A DNA stretch of 55,463 nt, taken from assembly GCA_016190485.1 (NCBI GenBank), contig JACPQN010000093.1:1-55463 (forward strand), given 5' to 3'. Shown here in pieces: positions 9,747 to 17,255 of the stretch. The notes under the pieces were generated by a model. It searched no databases and was not told the origin of the DNA. It was given only the letters and a program-made list of their open reading frames with translations. Made by a program: the position numbers and the translations under genes. Every line of letters starts with the position of its first letter. Positions within the stretch are counted from its first letter, which is position 1. This DNA comes from Chloroflexota bacterium (GTDB taxonomy: Bacteria; Chloroflexota; Dehalococcoidia; SHYD01).

Positions 9747-10244
9747 TCATCCTGCCGCTGGATGCGCTTCGACTGGCTCCCGTAGCGTCTCCACGGCGTG
9801 GGGCAGCACCGGCAGCAGCGCCTCCATAGACTCCGCCACGGCCCTGGGGCTGCCTGGCAGGTTGACGATGAGGGTACGCCCTCGTACTCCCGCCACGCCC
9901 CGGCTCAGCATGGCCATGGGGGTGTGCTTCAAGCCCTCCACCCGCAGGGCCTCCGCTATGCCCGGTATCTCCCGCTGCGCCACCTGGCGGGTGGCCTCGG
10001 GCGTGACGTCCCGAGGCGAGAGGCCGGTGCCGCCGGTGGTGATGATGACGTCCAGGTCGCCGGCGTCGGCCCAGGCGGCCAGGGTCTGGGCGATGAGCTC
10101 CAGGTCGTCGGGCAGCACCAGAAAGCGGGCCACCCGGCCGCCGGCACCCTCCACCCGCTGCCGGATGGCGGGTCCGCTCAGGTCCTCCCGCTGGCCCTGG
10201 TAGCCCTTGTCACTGGCCGTCAGCACCCCGACGGTGTACGACAT
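9747..10244 (-). CDS. mog: Molybdopterin adenylyltransferase, MogA/MoaB family
   Basis: Adenylylates molybdopterin before molybdenum insertion. The 165-residue protein has [15 protein letters not shown] at the N-terminus, the [16 protein letters not shown] motif (residues ~75-92) and the [10 protein letters not shown] motif near the C-terminus, all diagnostic. I prefer the start at 10244 because the sequence upstream to 10289 is not family-like. It leads the run into trmD. No other molybdenum cofactor gene is in the window. Confidence 0.9.
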
Positions 10245-10289
10245 ACCCTCTCTATACCCTCTCTTGCCCGCGCGATGACTGGAAAACAC

Positions 10290-10302
10290 TGCTATGATAG
10301 CA
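10290..10302. promoter_or_regulatory. Short palindrome upstream of mogA
   Basis: TGCTAT-G-ATAGCA lies about 46 bp upstream of the mogA start, in the divergent interval with the Mrr-like gene. On the minus strand it contains TATCAT, a possible -10. Weak support; it may be an operator. Confidence 0.3.
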
Positions 10303-10468
10303 CAACTGGGCGCAGCCGGAGGTCGCGGGGTCGCCGCGGCCCTTGACAGCTAGGGCAAATGTGCTAATACTAGGCTAAACTGACACCTTCATCGTAGTGC
10401 ACGCAATTTTAGTGGTAAGCTTACGAGATAGTGGAAGGGCACCTAGCCATCCGGTTTGAGACTCAAGG

Positions 10469-11479
10469 ATGATGGAAAGCATTGCTGAATTCCATATAGG
10501 AGAACACTACACTAATGACCAGATCAGGTTCTCTCTTGGCTTGGGGAACTTGGGAGGGATCCGTCCGTCAATTGACTCAAATAAGCGTCTTCGTCACCTT
10601 ACAATAATAACGTCTGCTCCGGGAACTAAACTACGCGCGGAGAACCCATATCATGACCGCATTGAAGGCGATGTCCTTATCTTTACTGCCCAGGGGAGAG
10701 AAGGAGATCAAGCGCTAAGCGGCACAAACAAGAGGCTCCTAGAGCAATATAGTGATCCTGTTCCCTTCTATGGTTTCATTAACGAAGGACGTCAATATTA
10801 TCGATTCTTAGGGCTTCTTGAGCTTCTTCGGCACTATCAGGAAGTTCAGGCTGACAGACGAAAGAAGTTGCGTAAGGTGTGGTTATTTGAACTTCGAATA
10901 CACACGCAACCCGATATTGTCCCTATCAACTCAGCAACTGTTATTACAGCCAGCATCTTAGGTGATTCTCGCCGTGCTAATCCTTTGTATTTGATGGAAC
11001 GGGAAGTAAGTTATCTACCCGACACTTTGGGGCAGGACATGATAGAGGCTTTCCCTTCAACCGAAGCGGAATCGGTACGAAGTAGTATGCTAAGGCTCCC
11101 TCCATTCAAGTTCGAGTATCTGATTAAGGATCTAATGGAACATAACGGCTTTTCGACAGTTAGAGTAACTTCGGCCACAGGCGACGGTGGAATAGATATT
11201 AACGCTTATGTGGATGAGGCAAACGATTTCTTTGCAGGAACTCACGTGCAAGCCCAAGTGAAAAGATGGCGTCATGCCGTCGGTAGTGCGGAGATAAACA
11301 AGTTCAGAGGCGCGCTGAGTTCAACTGCTAAAGGCGTCTTTGTTACAACCAGCCATTACACTAAGGCAGCAATTCTTGAAGCACGCCATGAATCTAAACC
11401 CTGCGTGACTCTCATCGATGGTATAAGACTCGCCTCGATGGTGCTTAAGAGTAATTTGGACGTAGAATCTGTGAATTAG
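10469..11479 (+). CDS. Mrr-type restriction endonuclease with N-terminal PUA/SRA-like domain
   Basis: Probable modification-dependent or companion restriction nuclease, 336 residues. The C-terminal half (residues ~210-325) fits the Mrr catalytic domain: FEYLIKDLMEHNGF with Glu216, GDGGID ending at Asp243, and QVK (Gln263, Lys265), the PD-(D/E)xK-type core. The N-terminal part (~30-165), with NPYHDRIEGDVLIFTAQGRE, looks like an SRA/PUA-type recognition domain; that assignment is tentative. Codon use is AT-rich, sharply unlike mogA and mutS on either side, so it was acquired. The next gene follows after 11 bp and is similar in composition. Confidence 0.75.
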   Translation: MMESIAEFHIGEHYTNDQIRFSLGLGNLGGIRPSIDSNKRLRHLTIITSAPGTKLRAENPYHDRIEGDVLIFTAQGREGDQALSGTNKRLLEQYSDPVPFYGFINEGRQYYRFLGLLELLRHYQEVQADRRKKLRKVWLFELRIHTQPDIVPINSATVITASILGDSRRANPLYLMEREVSYLPDTLGQDMIEAFPSTEAESVRSSMLRLPPFKFEYLIKDLMEHNGFSTVRVTSATGDGGIDINAYVDEANDFFAGTHVQAQVKRWRHAVGSAEINKFRGALSSTAKGVFVTTSHYTKAAILEARHESKPCVTLIDGIRLASMVLKSNLDVESVN

Positions 11480-11490
11480 CAGTCGCGATT

Positions 11491-12057
11491 ATGAGCTGCA
11501 CCGATAACTCGTCACAATCAATACGCTTTGTCTACAATCCCGCTTGCTCAACTTACCAGTTGATTCATGAACTACTTAACCGTACTTGTTGGAGTAACAA
11601 GGGTGATATGTTCGTCTCCAATCTAATTGGAGCTAGCTTACAGCTATCCTTTCCAGATTCGATTATCCCAGTATATGCTTATTCCAGAGCTGATTTACCT
11701 GGTGATCAACCAGGAAGCCTAGTAGTCGGCAGTACAGTATTTCATGTGACTGAAGCTCCCACTCTAGAAACCATAAGTTTTTTGAAGAGAGATGTCGGTC
11801 TAGATTATCGAGTTTATGTGCTAGTTCCTGAAAGAATACTTTCAGAAACGCTTCGCCTAGTTAATCGATTAATTTCTGAGAGCATTACTTGCCAGTCAAT
11901 AGAGTCTTTTGTAGGTTCGAGCATAGACATACTCTCAGGCTTCGAGACGGAAGCCTTGCCTAAAACACTAAAGAGGTTATTAGAAACATATAACAACCGC
12001 GTGGACTCGGCTGAGCTCGACCCATCGCTGCTGATCGACATCCCAAAGAACCTCTAA
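11491..12057 (+). CDS. Restriction-associated protein of unknown function (DUF4928-like)
   Basis: A 188-residue protein with no catalytic motif I can name. Its features are an N-terminal NRTCWSNKGDMFVSNLIGA segment, a VGSTVFHVTEAP strand, and a C-terminal helix followed by DPSLLIDIPKNL. The overall pattern recalls DUF4928 proteins found beside restriction genes; this is from memory and unverified. It shares the AT-rich composition of the Mrr-type gene 11 bp upstream, and the two probably form one defence module. No methyltransferase is present. Confidence 0.5.
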   Translation: MSCTDNSSQSIRFVYNPACSTYQLIHELLNRTCWSNKGDMFVSNLIGASLQLSFPDSIIPVYAYSRADLPGDQPGSLVVGSTVFHVTEAPTLETISFLKRDVGLDYRVYVLVPERILSETLRLVNRLISESITCQSIESFVGSSIDILSGFETEALPKTLKRLLETYNNRVDSAELDPSLLIDIPKNL

Positions 12058-12063
12058 CTTACC

Positions 12064-14697
12064 ATGTCCTCCGACACCTCCCTCACCCCCATCCGGCGCC
12101 AGTACCTGGAGCTGAAGGCCCGCTACCCGGGGGCTATCCTCTTCTTCCGCCTGGGCGACTTCTACGAGACCTTCGACCAGGACGCCGAGCTGGTGGCCCG
12201 GGAGCTGGAGATCACCCTCACCTCCCGCCCCCTGGGCAAGCAGGGGCGGGTGCCCCTGGCGGGGGTGCCCTACCACGCGGTGGAGGGCTACCTCTCCAAG
12301 CTCATCGCCAAGGGCTACCGGGTGGCCATCTGCGAGCAGCTGGCCGACCCAGCCAAGACCAGGGGCATCGTGCCCAGGGGCGTGGTGCGGGTGGTGACCC
12401 CCGGCACCGTGGTGGAGCCGCAGCTCCTGGCCAGCAAGCAGAACAACTATCTGGTGGCCTTCGCGCCGGCCCGGCCCACCCAGGCGGGCAGGCCCACCCT
12501 CAGGGCCGGGCGGCTTGACCTCGGCCAGGCCGGCATCGCCTACATCGACATCACCACCAGCGCGTTCGGGGTGACCCAGCTCCCCCTGGAGCAGGCCCTG
12601 GCGGAGCTGGAGCGCCTGGGGCCCGCGGAGGTGCTGGCGCCCGCCGGGGCTGAGGAGCTGCCGGTCCTCCCCGGCGTGGTGACCCCGGTGGCCGACGCCT
12701 GGTTCGACCCGGAGCGGGCCCAGGCGCGGCTGAAGCAGCACTTCGGGGTGGCGACCCTGGAGGGCTACGGCTGCCAGGGACTGCCCTGGGCCACGGCCGC
12801 GGCCGGGGCGGTGCTGGCCTACCTGGAGGAGACCCAGCCGGCCGCCCTGTCCCTGGTGACCCGCCTTCACACCTACTCCACGGACCAGTGGATGTACCTG
12901 GACCCCCAGACCAGGCGCAACCTGGAGCTGTTTCAGCGCTCGCGGTCCTCGACGCCGGAGGGATCGCTGCTGGCGGTGCTGGACCTTACCAGGACGGCCA
13001 TGGGTGGGCGAATGCTGCGCCGCTGGCTGGAGCGTCCGCTGCTGGAGATGGAGCCGCTGCTCCGGCGGCAGGATGCGGTGGAGGCCCTTTACCGGACGGC
13101 CATGGCCCGGAGTGAGGTCCTCCACCTGCTGGGGCGCATGCCCGACCTGGAGCGGCTGATCAACCGGGTCCGCGCCGGCTACGCCACGCCCAGGGAGCTG
13201 GTGGCCCTGCGGGAGGGTCTGGAGCTGGCGCCGCGCCTGCGGGAGGCTCTGGAGCGAGGGGAGGGCAGCCGTCCCCTGGCGTCCCTCGTCCCCAGCGGGG
13301 GGACCTGCGCCGACCTCGCGGCCCTGATCGGCGCCGCCATCCGGCCAGATCCGCCCGCGGCCCGGGACCAGAGCGAGGTCATCCGGCGGGGCTTCTCGCC
13401 GGAGCTGGACGGGCTGCGGGACGCCGCCGCCGGCGCCCAGGAGCGCCTGGCGGGCCTGGAGCGGCGGGAGCGGGAGCGCACCGGCATCCGGTCGCTGAAG
13501 GTGGGGTACAACAAGGTCTTCGGCTACTACCTGGAAATCAGCAACACCCACCGTCGGCTCGTCCCGCCGGACTATCTGCGCAAGCAGACCCTGGTGGGCG
13601 CCGAGCGCTTCTATACCCCGGAGCTGAAGGAGCTGGAGATAGCTATTCTGCACGCTCAGGAGCGGGCCCTGGAGCTGGAGCAGGAGCTTTTTCGCCAGGT
13701 CTGCGCCCAGGTGGCTGCGGCGGGCGAGCAGGTGCTGGACCTGGCCAGCGCGCTGGCGGAGCTGGACTGCTACGGCGCCCTGGCGGAGGCAGCAGAGCGT
13801 TACGGCTACGTGCGGCCGACCCTGAACGGGGGCGACGCCATCCGCATCGTGGACGGGCGTCACCCCGTGGTGGAGCGCTTTCTGGAGGACGGCGCCTTTG
13901 TGCCCAACGATGCCCTGCTGCAGAACGAGGACTGCCAGATCGCCATCATCACCGGCCCCAACATGGCGGGCAAGTCCACCTACCTGCGCCAGGTGGCCCT
14001 CATCGTCCTCATGGCCCAGATCGGCTCCTACGTGCCGGCGGCCGCGGCCACCATCGGGTTGGTGGACCGGATCTTCACCCGGGTGGGCGCCCAGGACGAC
14101 CTGGCCCGGGGCGAGTCCACCTTCATGGTGGAGATGGCCGAGACGGCCAACATCCTGCGCCACGCCACCCGCCGCTCCCTGGTGGTGCTGGACGAGATCG
14201 GCCGGGGGACCAGCACCTACGACGGCATCTCCATCGCCCGGGCCGTGGTGGAGCTGCTGCACAACAGCCCGCCGCTGGCGGCCAAGACCCTCTTTGCCAC
14301 CCACTACCACGAGCTGACGGCCCTCAGCGGCTACCTGCCCAGGGTGCGCAACTTCACCTTCGCGGTGGCCGAGGAGGGGGGATCGGTGGTCTTCCTCCGC
14401 CGCATCCTGCCGGGCGGCGGCGACAAGAGCTACGGCATCCACGTGGCCCGGCTGGCCGGGCTGCCGGAGAGCGTGGTCCGCCGCGCGGAGGAGGTGCTCC
14501 AGGAGCTGGAGGGCCAGCGCAGCGGAGACGGGAGACCGCTCCGGGAACACCGCAAGCCGGAGGGTCGCCAACTCCCCCTGCTGGACAGCGTCGGCGCCCT
14601 GCGAGAGGAACTGCTGAGCGTGGACCTCAACGGGCTGACCCCCCTGGAGGCCCTGAACCTCCTGTACCAGCTCCAGCAGAAGGCCAGGGACGGCTAG
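12064..14697 (+). CDS. mutS: DNA mismatch repair protein MutS
   Basis: Recognises mismatches and starts repair. The 877-residue protein has the mismatch-reading GDFYETF motif (~residue 35), connector and lever domains, and the ATPase: GPNMAGKSTYLRQ (~631), the TRVGAQDDLARGESTFMVEM signature, the Walker B VVLDEIGRGTSTYDG, and ATHYHEL. Length is typical. It begins 6 bp after the AT-rich island, with immediate return to high-GC codon use. Its TAG stop shares a CTAG tetramer with the convergent DUF5317 gene. mutL is not in the window. Confidence 0.97.
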   Translation: MSSDTSLTPIRRQYLELKARYPGAILFFRLGDFYETFDQDAELVARELEITLTSRPLGKQGRVPLAGVPYHAVEGYLSKLIAKGYRVAICEQLADPAKTRGIVPRGVVRVVTPGTVVEPQLLASKQNNYLVAFAPARPTQAGRPTLRAGRLDLGQAGIAYIDITTSAFGVTQLPLEQALAELERLGPAEVLAPAGAEELPVLPGVVTPVADAWFDPERAQARLKQHFGVATLEGYGCQGLPWATAAAGAVLAYLEETQPAALSLVTRLHTYSTDQWMYLDPQTRRNLELFQRSRSSTPEGSLLAVLDLTRTAMGGRMLRRWLERPLLEMEPLLRRQDAVEALYRTAMARSEVLHLLGRMPDLERLINRVRAGYATPRELVALREGLELAPRLREALERGEGSRPLASLVPSGGTCADLAALIGAAIRPDPPAARDQSEVIRRGFSPELDGLRDAAAGAQERLAGLERRERERTGIRSLKVGYNKVFGYYLEISNTHRRLVPPDYLRKQTLVGAERFYTPELKELEIAILHAQERALELEQELFRQVCAQVAAAGEQVLDLASALAELDCYGALAEAAERYGYVRPTLNGGDAIRIVDGRHPVVERFLEDGAFVPNDALLQNEDCQIAIITGPNMAGKSTYLRQVALIVLMAQIGSYVPAAAATIGLVDRIFTRVGAQDDLARGESTFMVEMAETANILRHATRRSLVVLDEIGRGTSTYDGISIARAVVELLHNSPPLAAKTLFATHYHELTALSGYLPRVRNFTFAVAEEGGSVVFLRRILPGGGDKSYGIHVARLAGLPESVVRRAEEVLQELEGQRSGDGRPLREHRKPEGRQLPLLDSVGALREELLSVDLNGLTPLEALNLLYQLQQKARDG

Positions 14698-15260: not shown

Positions 15261-16539
15261 CGTGCTCTCCCTGAGCCCGCAGCAGCTCCACCTCGCCGGG
15301 CCAGTGGATGGTGAGGAAGGCGCTCACTACTGCGGGGTCGAACTGGCTGCCGCTGTTACGCTCGATCTCGTCCCTGGCCTCCTCCCAGGAGTAGGGTCTC
15401 CGGTAGGGCCGCCCGAAGTACATGGCGTCGAAGGCATCCACCACCGAGATGATGCGAGACCCCAGGGGGATCGCATCGCCCGCCAGCCCATCGGGGTAGC
15501 CGGAGCCGTCGAAGCGCTCGTGGTGGTGGCGCACGATCCCCGCGACCTCCCGGAGGTGCTCGTAGGGCTCCAGGAGCTGGGCGCCATCGGCAGGATGCCG
15601 GCGCGCCACCTCCCATTCCTCCGCCGTCAGCGACCCCGGTTTCAGGAGTACCCGATCCGGCATGCCCAGCTTCCCCACATCATGGAGCAGCCCCGCGACG
15701 TACAGCGACTCCAGGCTCCCCCCTCGCATCCCACACACCGCGCCCAGGCGCTGCGCGAAGACCGCGATACGCTGGGTGTGGCCCGCGGTCTCGTGCTCCC
15801 GCAGGTCCAGGCTGTCCGCCAGGGACTGCACTACCTGGGTGTAGAACTGCCGCACCAGGGCGGAGTTCCGCAGGCCGTAGTAGCTGGCCACCAGGGGAAG
15901 GCCCAGGAGCACCACCGCCAAGGGGCTGACCCTGGTGTAGGTGAGGCTCAGGGTGGCGCCGTAGGCCCCCAGGGTGAGGTAGCTCACGTGGGTAAGGGTG
16001 GAGCTCGCGGAGCGCCAGACGGCGTAAACCGAGCGCCCGGAGGAGAACGCCACCGCGATGGCCACCAGCAGGGTGTTGAGGGTCCCGTAGCAGACGGCGG
16101 CCACAAGGCTCGCGACAATGAACCACCACACCTCCTGGCCCGGGTTCAGCCCGTTGACGTACTGAAACACCACCGCGCCGGCGCCACCGCACAGGGCGAA
16201 CATGGAGCGGTTAAAGAGCAGCTTGCTAAGGTCAGTCTTGCCCGTCAGGTCCCGAGCGGAGAGGCTAGCCACGGAGATAATGAGCGCGGCCAGGGGCGGG
16301 CTGAACAGGGTGAGGTTCGCGGTGGTGACGGCCAGCCCCACCGAGACCCGCATGCGCTGGGTCTCGAAGTGGGCGATGTCGAACTGCACGGCATGGGCGG
16401 CAAGGCCCGCCCCGATCCAGAAGAGGATGTCCGACCACGCGAAAGAGACCGGGCCGTAGACGCTAAACAGCAGCAAAAGAACGGCGATTGTGCACGTGTG
16501 CACAATCGCCAGATAGACGACCGTCCGACGGTTGGTCAC
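15247..16539 (-). CDS. Membrane HD-GYP domain phosphodiesterase (putative sensor)
   Basis: Likely degrades cyclic di-GMP. The N-terminal ~230 residues contain about seven hydrophobic segments (for example ALIISVASLSA and VAAVCYGTLNTLLVAIAV), a membrane sensor module. The C-terminal ~190 residues form an HD-GYP domain: GHTQRIA, LLHDVGKLGMPD, HPADGAQLL, HHHERFDGSGYP and SVVDAFDAM. The GTG start at 16539 overlaps the TGA of a 7-codon leader ORF. A 13-bp-arm inverted repeat lies within the first 20 codons. The two small secreted-peptide genes lie directly upstream on the same strand, making it a candidate receptor. Confidence 0.9.
   Translation of the reverse strand: MTNRRTVVYLAIVHTCTIAVLLLLFSVYGPVSFAWSDILFWIGAGLAAHAVQFDIAHFETQRMRVSVGLAVTTANLTLFSPPLAALIISVASLSARDLTGKTDLSKLLFNRSMFALCGGAGAVVFQYVNGLNPGQEVWWFIVASLVAAVCYGTLNTLLVAIAVAFSSGRSVYAVWRSASSTLTHVSYLTLGAYGATLSLTYTRVSPLAVVLLGLPLVASYYGLRNSALVRQFYTQVVQSLADSLDLREHETAGHTQRIAVFAQRLGAVCGMRGGSLESLYVAGLLHDVGKLGMPDRVLLKPGSLTAEEWEVARRHPADGAQLLEPYEHLREVAGIVRHHHERFDGSGYPDGLAGDAIPLGSRIISVVDAFDAMYFGRPYRRPYSWEEARDEIERNSGSQFDPAVVSAFLTIHWPGEVELLRAQGEHDAHE
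16483..16510. promoter_or_regulatory. Inverted repeat inside the start of the HD-GYP gene
   Basis: Arms GGCGATTGTGCAC and GTGCACAATCGCC with a 2-bp spacer, a perfect 13-bp match, about 30 bp inside the coding region. It could be a protein-binding site, or fold in RNA as a 12-bp stem with a 4-nt loop near the start codon. Confidence 0.6.
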
Positions 16540-16559
16540 TTACGCCCCGGCTGCTCCAT
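16536..16559 (-). CDS. Seven-codon leader ORF coupled to the HD-GYP gene
   Basis: ATG at 16559 encodes MEQPGRK and ends in TGA, which overlaps the GTG start of the HD-GYP gene as GTGA. GAGGAG lies 6 nt upstream of this ATG, a much better ribosome-binding site than the HD-GYP start itself has. It therefore probably feeds ribosomes to the downstream start. Its peptide is unlikely to have a function of its own. Confidence 0.55.
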   Translation of the reverse strand: MEQPGRK

Positions 16560-16573
16560 ACTCTTCTCCTCGT

Positions 16574-16579
16574 ATTATA
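16574..16579 (-). promoter_or_regulatory. Candidate -10 element for the HD-GYP gene
   Basis: A perfect TATAAT on the minus strand just upstream of the leader ORF. No good -35 hexamer is seen at 16-18 bp, so an internal, activator-dependent promoter is possible. Confidence 0.4.
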
Positions 16580-16600
16580 GAGGGACGGGTGACAGTATTT

Positions 16601-16705
16601 CTATCCCCAATCCACGTCGCCGCCGGCGGCCAGCGCCAGGGAGGTGAGGACCAGAACGGCCTGCAAGACCAGGGGCCACAGGACGGCCTTCATCCACCGC
16701 TGCAT
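16601..16705 (-). CDS. Small secreted-peptide gene, copy 1 (34 aa)
   Basis: A 34-codon ORF starting MQRWMKAVLW, with a basic N-region, a ~20-residue hydrophobic core and a C-terminal AGGDVDWG. GAAGGAG lies 7 nt before the ATG. The profile is a signal peptide with an Ala-Leu-Ala cleavage site (residues 24-26), leaving the octapeptide AGGDVDWG. It could alternatively stay as a one-helix membrane peptide. A near-identical copy lies 180 bp upstream. The two differ by one conservative residue plus silent changes, which suggests selection for the protein. It lies 61 bp before the HD-GYP gene, same strand. No known family recognised. Confidence 0.7.
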   Translation of the reverse strand: MQRWMKAVLWPLVLQAVLVLTSLALAAGGDVDWG

Positions 16706-16780
16706 GATTGTGCTCCTTCTTTGATGTGTCGCTTGGGGGTATGAACGCTTATTCAGTTGTAACGCTGGGGCTCTGAGCGG

Positions 16781-16885
16781 CTATCCCCAGTCCACGTCGC
16801 CGCCGGCAGCCAGCACCAGGGAGGTGAGGACCAGAACGGCCTGCAAGACCAGGGGCCACAGGACGGCCTTCATCCACCGCTGCAT
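16781..16885 (-). CDS. Small secreted-peptide gene, copy 2 (34 aa)
   Basis: A tandem paralogue of the gene at 16601-16705, with the same length, ribosome-binding site (AGAAGGAG) and C-terminus. The only residue change is Ala24 to Val, at the -3 position of the predicted signal-peptidase site, where both residues are accepted. Other differences (GCC/GCT, GAT/GAC) are silent. The predicted mature octapeptide is identical. It is the promoter-proximal gene of the minus-strand cluster. Confidence 0.7.
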   Translation of the reverse strand: MQRWMKAVLWPLVLQAVLVLTSLVLAAGGDVDWG

Positions 16886-16997
16886 GATCGTGCTCCTTCT
16901 GGGGTGAAAGTTGTGGTTTTCCCGCACCGGTTATTAAGTTGTGATCCTCATCACCTCCTTTGTTTGTGGTTAAGGTTGGTCTAGGGAAAACCAGGAT

Positions 16998-17037
16998 ATT
17001 GTACTCCTTTCTCCAGCGATAGGACAGGTCTACCTGT
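16998..17037 (-). promoter_or_regulatory. Candidate promoter and operator of the peptide genes
   Basis: TACAAT (minus strand, 16998-17003) fits a -10. At the -35 position lies a palindrome, ACAGGT-CT-ACCTGT (17024-17037), instead of a consensus hexamer. This arrangement suggests an activator-dependent promoter, which is inference. Confidence 0.4.
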
Positions 17038-17113
17038 GGAAAAAAACCTTTAGATCGTTCTTAGCGCCTGAACCCAGCACGCCCGGGCAGAGCACACTAC
17101 CATCTCCATTGAA

Positions 17114-17210
17114 GAGAGTGTTTATCAACCTGCCACCCCAGGCTCAAGCCTGAGGCATTCTGAGCGGCTATGCTGCAGGCTTCAGCCTGCAGTGCGGAGT
17201 TATTAAACAC
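17114..17210. mobile_element. 97-bp hairpin element, copy 1
   Basis: It starts GAGAGTGTTTATCAACC and ends TTATTAAACAC, so the ends form short inverted repeats (GTGTTTA). Inside are two hairpins, CAGGCT/AGCCTG and GCAGGCT/AGCCTGC. An inverted, nearly identical copy lies at 35670-35767. No coding content; the rest of 17040-17290 holds only the promoter of the next gene. Confidence 0.7.
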
Positions 17211-17227
17211 CGTCTCGTTGAACCGCC

Positions 17228-17255
17228 TTGACTTCGGCCCAGCATTTGCTAGTAT
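17228..17255 (+). promoter_or_regulatory. Promoter for the peptide-binding lipoprotein gene
   Basis: TTGACT and TAGTAT separated by 16 bp, about 40 bp upstream of the start codon, which itself has AAAGGAG at good spacing. Confidence 0.45.

Follow-up and report, generated by a model that had tools for sequence, protein, structure and literature searches.

A probable modification-dependent endonuclease in the place of a type II C5 methyltransferase, beside a worn DUF4928 remnant

The stretch of DNA analyzed here (the window, 55,463 nucleotides of a Chloroflexota contig, JACPQN010000093.1) carries a two-gene island, ORF1 (10469-11479, 336 aa) and ORF2 (11491-12057, 188 aa), which lie 11 nt apart on the same strand, as the original prediction had placed them. 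The setting described there held as well: the island is AT rich (GC content of 0.41 to 0.47 inside versus 0.66 to 0.76 in neighboring genes) and is flanked on one side by a minus-strand gene of the MoCF_biosynth type (mogA-like) and on the other by mutS. It is present in a single copy in the window's genome, and neither gene is a chance frame, because ORF1 matched Mrr_cat with an E value of 7e-24 and ORF2 matched DUF4928 with an E value of 5e-36. The features of the island are as follows.

10343..10371, plus strand: sigma-70-like promoter (TTGACA, 17 nt, AATACT) upstream of ORF1, consensus match 10/12
10469..11479, plus strand: ORF1, SRA-like domain and Mrr_cat nuclease, probable modification-dependent endonuclease (Pfam, N-domain profile, 10 other orthologous loci)
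10472..10960, plus strand: SRA-like N-terminal domain of ORF1 (stretch used for alignment, edges approximate)
11093..11443, plus strand: Mrr_cat nuclease domain of ORF1 (PF04471, E value of 7.2e-24, residues 209-325)
11183..11263, plus strand: probable catalytic motif of ORF1, from DGGID (11183-11197) to QVK (11255-11263) (sequence, ortholog conservation)
11491..12057, plus strand: ORF2, C-terminal half of a DUF4928 type II restriction enzyme (PF16280, PADLOC REase_II, alignments)

The promoter call is weak, since 5 sigma-70-like sites occur within positions 10200-12200 versus 2.6 (SD, 1.6) in shuffled sequences. A second GC dip (0.55 to 0.60) lies past mutS, at window positions 16500-17250. 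An empty site was sought via mutS in 12 relatives, and adjacency of mogA and mutS was found in 0 of the 9 loci read (approximately 1.5 kb each, L141 being without an upstream flank).

Judging from its orthologs, ORF1 probably starts at the second ATG (10472), and approximately 200 residues precede its Mrr_cat domain. The DGGID and HVQ[AF]Q[VI]K motifs are kept in 11 of 11 ORF1 orthologs. A profile of 17 ORF1-type N-terminal domains (A6) was compared with solved structures and matched the SRA domains of ScoMcrA (E value of 1.2e-6) and SUVH5 (E value of 0.002), although its inclusion of SRA-HNH relatives favors finding ScoMcrA. Up to an E value of 10, the only solved chains matched by the profile were those of ScoMcrA, SUVH, and UHRF1. 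A passage of PMC6224610 gives residues 91-260 as the sulfur-binding domain (SBD) of ScoMcrA and residues 91-442 as the SBD-SRA construct, and the residues matched by A6 therefore fall in the SRA part. Sub-threshold Pfam matches (E value up to 0.1) were obtained to AspBHI_N in 10 and to SAD_SRA in 6 of the 17 N-domain members, and the N-domain of ORF1 by itself gave a weak AspBHI_N match only. A phmmer search of ORF1 against solved chains returned no match up to an E value of 1, NCBIfam returned none, and structure prediction from three sequences yielded no usable model (mean pLDDT of 31). Pfam revealed no Mrr_N domain in front of Mrr_cat in ORF1 up to an E value of 10, and the same library does find Mrr_N in an Mrr protein of another locus, L051. 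At L051 (256-2028), an SRA-like-HNH gene adjoins this classical Mrr_N-Mrr_cat gene, a possible second pairing of these nuclease types. Plasmids encode three proteins in which the ORF1-type N-domain is fused to HNH, and the same fusion was found on one viral contig and in three genomes from the window's phylum. Hence, the proposal of an Mrr-type nuclease with an added recognition-like domain was borne out by the Mrr_cat match and, less firmly, by the SRA-like profile match (ScoMcrA, E value near 1e-6). The pair has no methyltransferase, and the most likely reading of ORF1 is a modification-dependent enzyme, as had been suggested from the window alone.

The partner fared differently. It had been taken for a possible specificity or regulatory subunit; however, ORF2 matched PF16280 (DUF4928) over profile positions 128-306 of 306, so that the first approximately 127 positions are missing, and it matched positions 175-322 of the 331 in REase_II, a PADLOC model for type II restriction enzymes, falling in the second half of that model. 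In the alignments, QHLVGAK, GDF, and HVT are present in all 13 full-length DUF4928 proteins, whereas in ORF2 the conserved QH, K, and D residues are replaced and only HVT is retained. Of the two motifs singled out in the original prediction, TVFHVTEAP is thus truly conserved in DUF4928, while NKGDMFVSNLIGA is only a degenerate QHLVGAK block. A new regulatory subunit was therefore rejected, and judging by the alignments, ORF2 is an eroded remnant of the restriction enzyme of a displaced type II system; ORF1 alone looks active in the window. A model of ORF2 (two sequences, pLDDT of 62.6) retrieved nothing from the PDB by Foldseek at an E value of ≤0.001; the top row was MspJI (E value of 0.063, probability of 0.63, TM of 0.37), from which we draw no claim about the fold. 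According to our literature search, DUF4928 is almost without literature, being named once in a single paper.

Counting the window, 10 genomes yielded ORF1 orthologs, at 11 loci in total. A scan of 84,980 species for close matches only gave two ORF1 records, titled Deltaproteobacteria and delta proteobacterium. One further ortholog was present among 99 genomes related to the first record, and 155 genomes from the class of the second record (G403) contained seven genomes with eight ORF1 loci, that of the second record included. Among the matches listed from 400 genomes of the window's phylum, there was no full-length ORF1 besides that of the window, and the matches were mainly on the nuclease domain. 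In viral contigs, strict scans with ORF1 and ORF2 detected no relative; scans with profiles gave an SRA-HNH locus and a second locus whose match was confined to residues 215-322. Phages gave 3 partial matches for ORF1 and none for ORF2. Plasmids gave 103 partial matches to ORF1, all spanning less than 80% of it, and ORF2 matched 2 Enterobacter records, one of which was inspected. A chimeric assembly as the origin of the island was ruled out by the recurrence of the layout in separate assemblies. Methyltransferases, HNH proteins, DUF4928 copies, and Vsr genes were checked with Pfam, and the loci other than the window are arranged as follows.

L064: 72 codons of the methyltransferase gene, then ORF1, then a DUF4928 C-half
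L063: truncated Vsr, then ORF1
L091: ORF1 and a DUF4928 C-half
L092: ORF1, a DUF4928 C-half, and Vsr
L095 to L099: ORF1, full-length DUF4928, and Vsr, with a 5′ methyltransferase piece in four of the five
L125: ORF1 with only a Vsr gene, approximately 0.8 kb away, where the contig ends

Some piece of a methyltransferase, DUF4928, or Vsr gene thus lies near ORF1 at 11 of 11 loci, and an intact methyltransferase lies beside it at none. A 5′ fragment of the methyltransferase gene is present at 5 of the 11 loci, and DUF4928 or its C-half is present at 9. The fragment in L099 abuts an assembly gap, no such piece was found in L097, and no DUF4928 was found in the genome of L063. One genome, G525, bears two separate ORF1-DUF4928-Vsr loci (L097 and L099), neither with an intact methyltransferase adjoining.

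Where ORF1 is absent, the operon is of a different kind. A C5 methyltransferase was present in the DUF4928 operon at all 8 ORF1-free loci inspected (five other genomes of the window's phylum, one Enterobacter plasmid, L093, and L094); it directly adjoins DUF4928 in six of them, and Vsr lies between the two in L012 and L013. L093 and L094 each hold an intact operon of methyltransferase, DUF4928, and Vsr. This operon context, together with the PADLOC model, identifies DUF4928 as the restriction enzyme of a type II system, and in relatives ORF1 occupies the place of the C5 methyltransferase of that operon. In the window itself, no methyltransferase adjoins ORF2, as had been noted, no remnant of a methyltransferase or Vsr gene was found upstream of ORF1, and no C5 methyltransferase was found in the genome, which is 84% complete. 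It had been noted that a cognate methyltransferase normally encoded between the two genes in relatives would make the pair a remnant. This largely applies: relatives do encode one in the same operon as DUF4928, but upstream of it and not between the two genes, and the description of a remnant fits ORF2 but not ORF1. A 540-aa protein upstream of DUF4928 in L009 (7129-8751) combines Vsr and the C5 methyltransferase in a single chain, and a gene order of this kind might account for the truncated Vsr that precedes ORF1 in L063.

Comparison of two near-identical loci, L098 with ORF1 and L093 with the intact operon, revealed what was exchanged. At the level of these loci, identity is 97.5% up to the MIIDA codons of the methyltransferase gene; a segment of approximately 1,081 bp in L093 (the end of the methyltransferase gene and the start of DUF4928) then corresponds to approximately 1,518 bp in L098 (ORF1 and a different DUF4928 start), past which identity resumes at 97.8%. 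Accordingly, the DUF4928 proteins of the two loci are 64.6% identical in the N-half and 98.7% identical in the C-half. Because of this swap, ORF1 can be said to replace the methyltransferase and not merely to lie near it. The same 5′ junction, at the MIID codons, is found in L095, L096, and L098, whose methyltransferase fragments are only 70 to 76% identical to one another. The junction in L064 differs, the gene being cut earlier, after the ATAS codons. The fragments are damaged further by a stop in L098 and by a deletion and a frameshift in L096. We take the MIID codons to lie just before methyltransferase motif VIII, and the part lost past the junction is presumably the target-recognition half. 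The C-half of the methyltransferase is missing and not spliced, unlike after insertion of an intron or intein that leaves the host gene whole.

The short DUF4928 forms start near one point, at profile positions 128 (window), 132 (L064), and 131 (L092), close to the end of the exchange between L098 and L093. The open frame in L091 begins later, at position 158, with matching DNA from approximately 10 residues past the window's start. In the simplest reading, the enzyme would be divided at this common break into a part for recognition and a part for catalysis. All 5 full-length DUF4928 proteins beside ORF1 (L095 to L099) have approximately 12 extra residues just before the C-half, which are absent from L093 and L094 of the same clade with an intact methyltransferase; this insert may be the mark of a change of partner.

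The genes at these loci differ in age. Between L095 and L096, dS was 1.29 for the methyltransferase fragment, 0.32 for ORF1, and 0.97 for DUF4928; between L095 and L098, the corresponding values were 2.6, 0.79, and 1.7. Third-position identity of ORF1 differed from that of its flanks in seven comparisons (P values from 1e-11 to 1.6e-4; 1e-11 and 2e-10 for L095-L096). By synonymous divergence, ORF1 is therefore younger than the genes on both sides in these three divergent alleles. For nine orthologs its GC content is 0.35 to 0.39 and for the window copy 0.46; in each of the 10 cases measured, the remainder of the locus is richer in GC. Being both younger than its flanks and AT rich, ORF1 has moved between alleles.

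Trees pointed to several histories for its neighbor. On C-half columns, a single clade of the four short DUF4928 forms was rejected (AU test, P = 4e-4); this group had been fixed beforehand, and the group of the window, L091, and L064 was named after the first tree. The C-half of L064 is sister to full-length DUF4928 from intact operons in the window's phylum (100/100), and that of L092 falls inside the clade of L093 to L099 (100/100), while a single group (100/100) unites ORF1 from the window, L063, L064, and L091. The window and L091 DUF4928 rows are long branches that meet at 87/85, and we are unsure of a common origin of these two halves. Taken as a set, and as far as the trees tell, the truncated DUF4928 halves are of separate origin.

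On balance, we consider it probable that the C5 methyltransferase of a type II system has been displaced time and again by ORF1, a mobile and probably modification-dependent endonuclease, and that a worn remnant of such a system survives in the window. The selective reason for the displacement and the way in which ORF1 moves, homing included, we infer as follows. The SRA-like domain would read modified cytosine and the Mrr-type domain would cut, and ORF1 would move as a mobile gene into the place of the C5 methyltransferase in M.C5-DUF4928-Vsr systems. A cell holding both ORF1 and an active methyltransferase that makes its target would damage its own DNA. Loss of the methyltransferase would remove the mark that ORF1 attacks, ORF1 would persist where that gene is gone, and by standing in the methyltransferase gene itself it would achieve precisely this loss. 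The neighboring DUF4928 gene could then stay whole, shrink to its C-half, or wear down.

What counts against simple displacement and decay is the state of DUF4928 at five loci lacking an intact methyltransferase, where it is full length, keeps the conserved motifs, and shows a dN/dS ratio of approximately 0.1 (ratios for distant pairs being saturated and not computable). With the dS of ORF1 as a clock (0.16 substitutions per site), neutral evolution should have left 4 to 5 stops in each lineage; none was observed, an outcome with a probability of 0.01 to 0.02 for each of three simulated genes. Where DUF4928 persists although its methyltransferase is gone, it must depend on ORF1, be protected in another way, or be harmless by itself. 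This constraint keeps viable, at the full-length loci, an alternative in which ORF1 and DUF4928 (whole or as a C-half) form a working two-part restriction system free of a methyltransferase, where ORF1 finds modified DNA, DUF4928 helps to cut or bind it, and a system once blocked by modification came to depend on it through the swap. The shared start of the C-halves in the window, L064, and L092 and a GGAGG ribosome site for the L064 C-half within the end of ORF1 speak for it as well. Yet ORF1 occurs with no DUF4928 found in L063 and L125, the DUF4928 partners come from different clades, the L091 frame starts later than the rest, and the constraint may largely predate ORF1, whose dS is lower. 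In the window, such a system is unlikely because ORF2 has lost its QH, K, and D residues, even though its frame is still open. Overall, we regard cooperation of the two proteins as somewhat unlikely. A bolder version, in which ORF1 homes into the very methyltransferase gene that makes its target, removes by gene conversion the half that sets specificity, and puts the restriction enzyme already present to new use, would make ORF1 a mobile gene of a new kind and convert a modification-blocked into a modification-dependent system in one step, the window being a late stage in which the active site of the partner is lost; we hold this to be unlikely.

The modification dependence of ORF1 could also be questioned, with the SRA-like domain reading something else and the methyltransferase having been replaced by ordinary recombination between alleles. 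Five of the seven ORF1 genomes tested in one class (that of G403; G402 and G573 lie outside this test) do encode another, apparently complete C5 methyltransferase. These enzymes, each accompanied by its own Vsr, resemble the lost one little (28% identity, a 54-residue match, or no tblastn hit at 1e-3). A genome-wide incompatibility of ORF1 with m5C hence fails, and ORF1 must be choosy or those marks harmless. Nevertheless, none of the 11 loci combines ORF1 with an intact methyltransferase from its type of operon, and modification reading is the described role of SRA-like domains in MspJI and other bacterial nucleases (PMC3874153, in the passages cited), so that we judge this alternative decidedly unlikely. 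A further alternative would make ORF1 an ordinary solitary Mrr-type gene that lies by chance beside decayed restriction genes. Defense genes do cluster in genomes, and ORF1 in L125 is accompanied only by a Vsr gene at some distance. A piece of the same operon type at every one of the 11 loci with an intact methyltransferase adjoining at none, as well as the fixed junction inside the methyltransferase gene in three alleles, renders mere coincidence highly improbable.

Taken together, the parts are ordinary and their arrangement is unusual; what deserves following is the repeated loss of a methyltransferase's place to a nuclease that is probably modification dependent. Conflict between restriction-modification systems and modification-dependent nucleases is known from killing assays and from nuclease silencing (passages of PMC2614495 and PMC8989522). 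At the loci studied here, gene structure itself seems to record this conflict, with one nuclease family repeatedly in the place of the methyltransferase and a near-identical pair of loci representing before and after. A direct test of the conversion of a type II into a modification-dependent system by one gene swap becomes possible, and the system also allows one to ask how a restriction enzyme survives without its methyltransferase. Among the matches listed in our literature search (titles and abstract openings, with most subscription papers outside its scope), no description of an ORF1-type arrangement was found.

Several known systems resemble this arrangement in part. Like a homing endonuclease gene, ORF1 stands at the same insertion point in divergent alleles of a host gene (L095, L096, and L098; the L064 junction differs, and the window retains no methyltransferase sequence to show one) and has a history different from that of its flanks (dS in L095-L096 of 0.32 versus 1.29 and 0.97). 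Unlike such a gene, it neither leaves the host methyltransferase gene whole nor sits between genes. ORF1 differs from Type IV Mrr in the lack of Mrr_N (E value up to 10). TagI is an SRA-HNH enzyme. With enzymes of this kind (TagI and ScoMcrA, the latter from a passage of PMC6224610), ORF1 appears to share a related SRA-like domain, but its nuclease domain is of the Mrr type and not HNH. The MspJI family (Type IIM; MspJI, AspBHI, and others) is described as having an SRA-like N terminus, an Mrr-cat C terminus, and a (D/E)..(D/E/Q)XK site (PMC3874153, in part); ORF1 probably has the same layout and has a QXK site and the weak AspBHI_N match, yet it lacks a phmmer match to MspJI or AspBHI chains (E value up to 1) and stands in the place of a methyltransferase. 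ORF2 is related by profile to the DUF4928 of type II systems consisting of M.C5 and DUF4928 (with or without Vsr), although the window lacks the methyltransferase, the first approximately 127 profile positions, and the conserved residues.

The closest parallels concern nucleases in conflict with methylation. Methylation of the genome leads McrBC to kill the cell, and insertions of mcrBC homologs into restriction-modification operons have been described (Fukuda et al. 2008, PMC2614495). Type I systems make up many of those linked to mcrBC there and type IIG systems some; compatibility is expected for them, and the insertion is interpreted as providing a helper. ORF1 likewise would be a modification-dependent nuclease, proposed to be mobile, in a restriction-modification operon, but unlike the mcrBC cases so described (PMC2614495), it destroys a C5 methyltransferase and does so at a fixed point in three alleles. 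In the PcaRCI/PcaRCII conflict of Pectobacterium, a methyltransferase is described as coexisting with a nuclease that cuts its mark because the promoter of the nuclease is silenced by methylation (Birkholz et al. 2022, PMC8989522, in part). If our reading of ORF1 holds, the same conflict of methyltransferase and nuclease would have been solved here in a different way, by loss of the methyltransferase gene.
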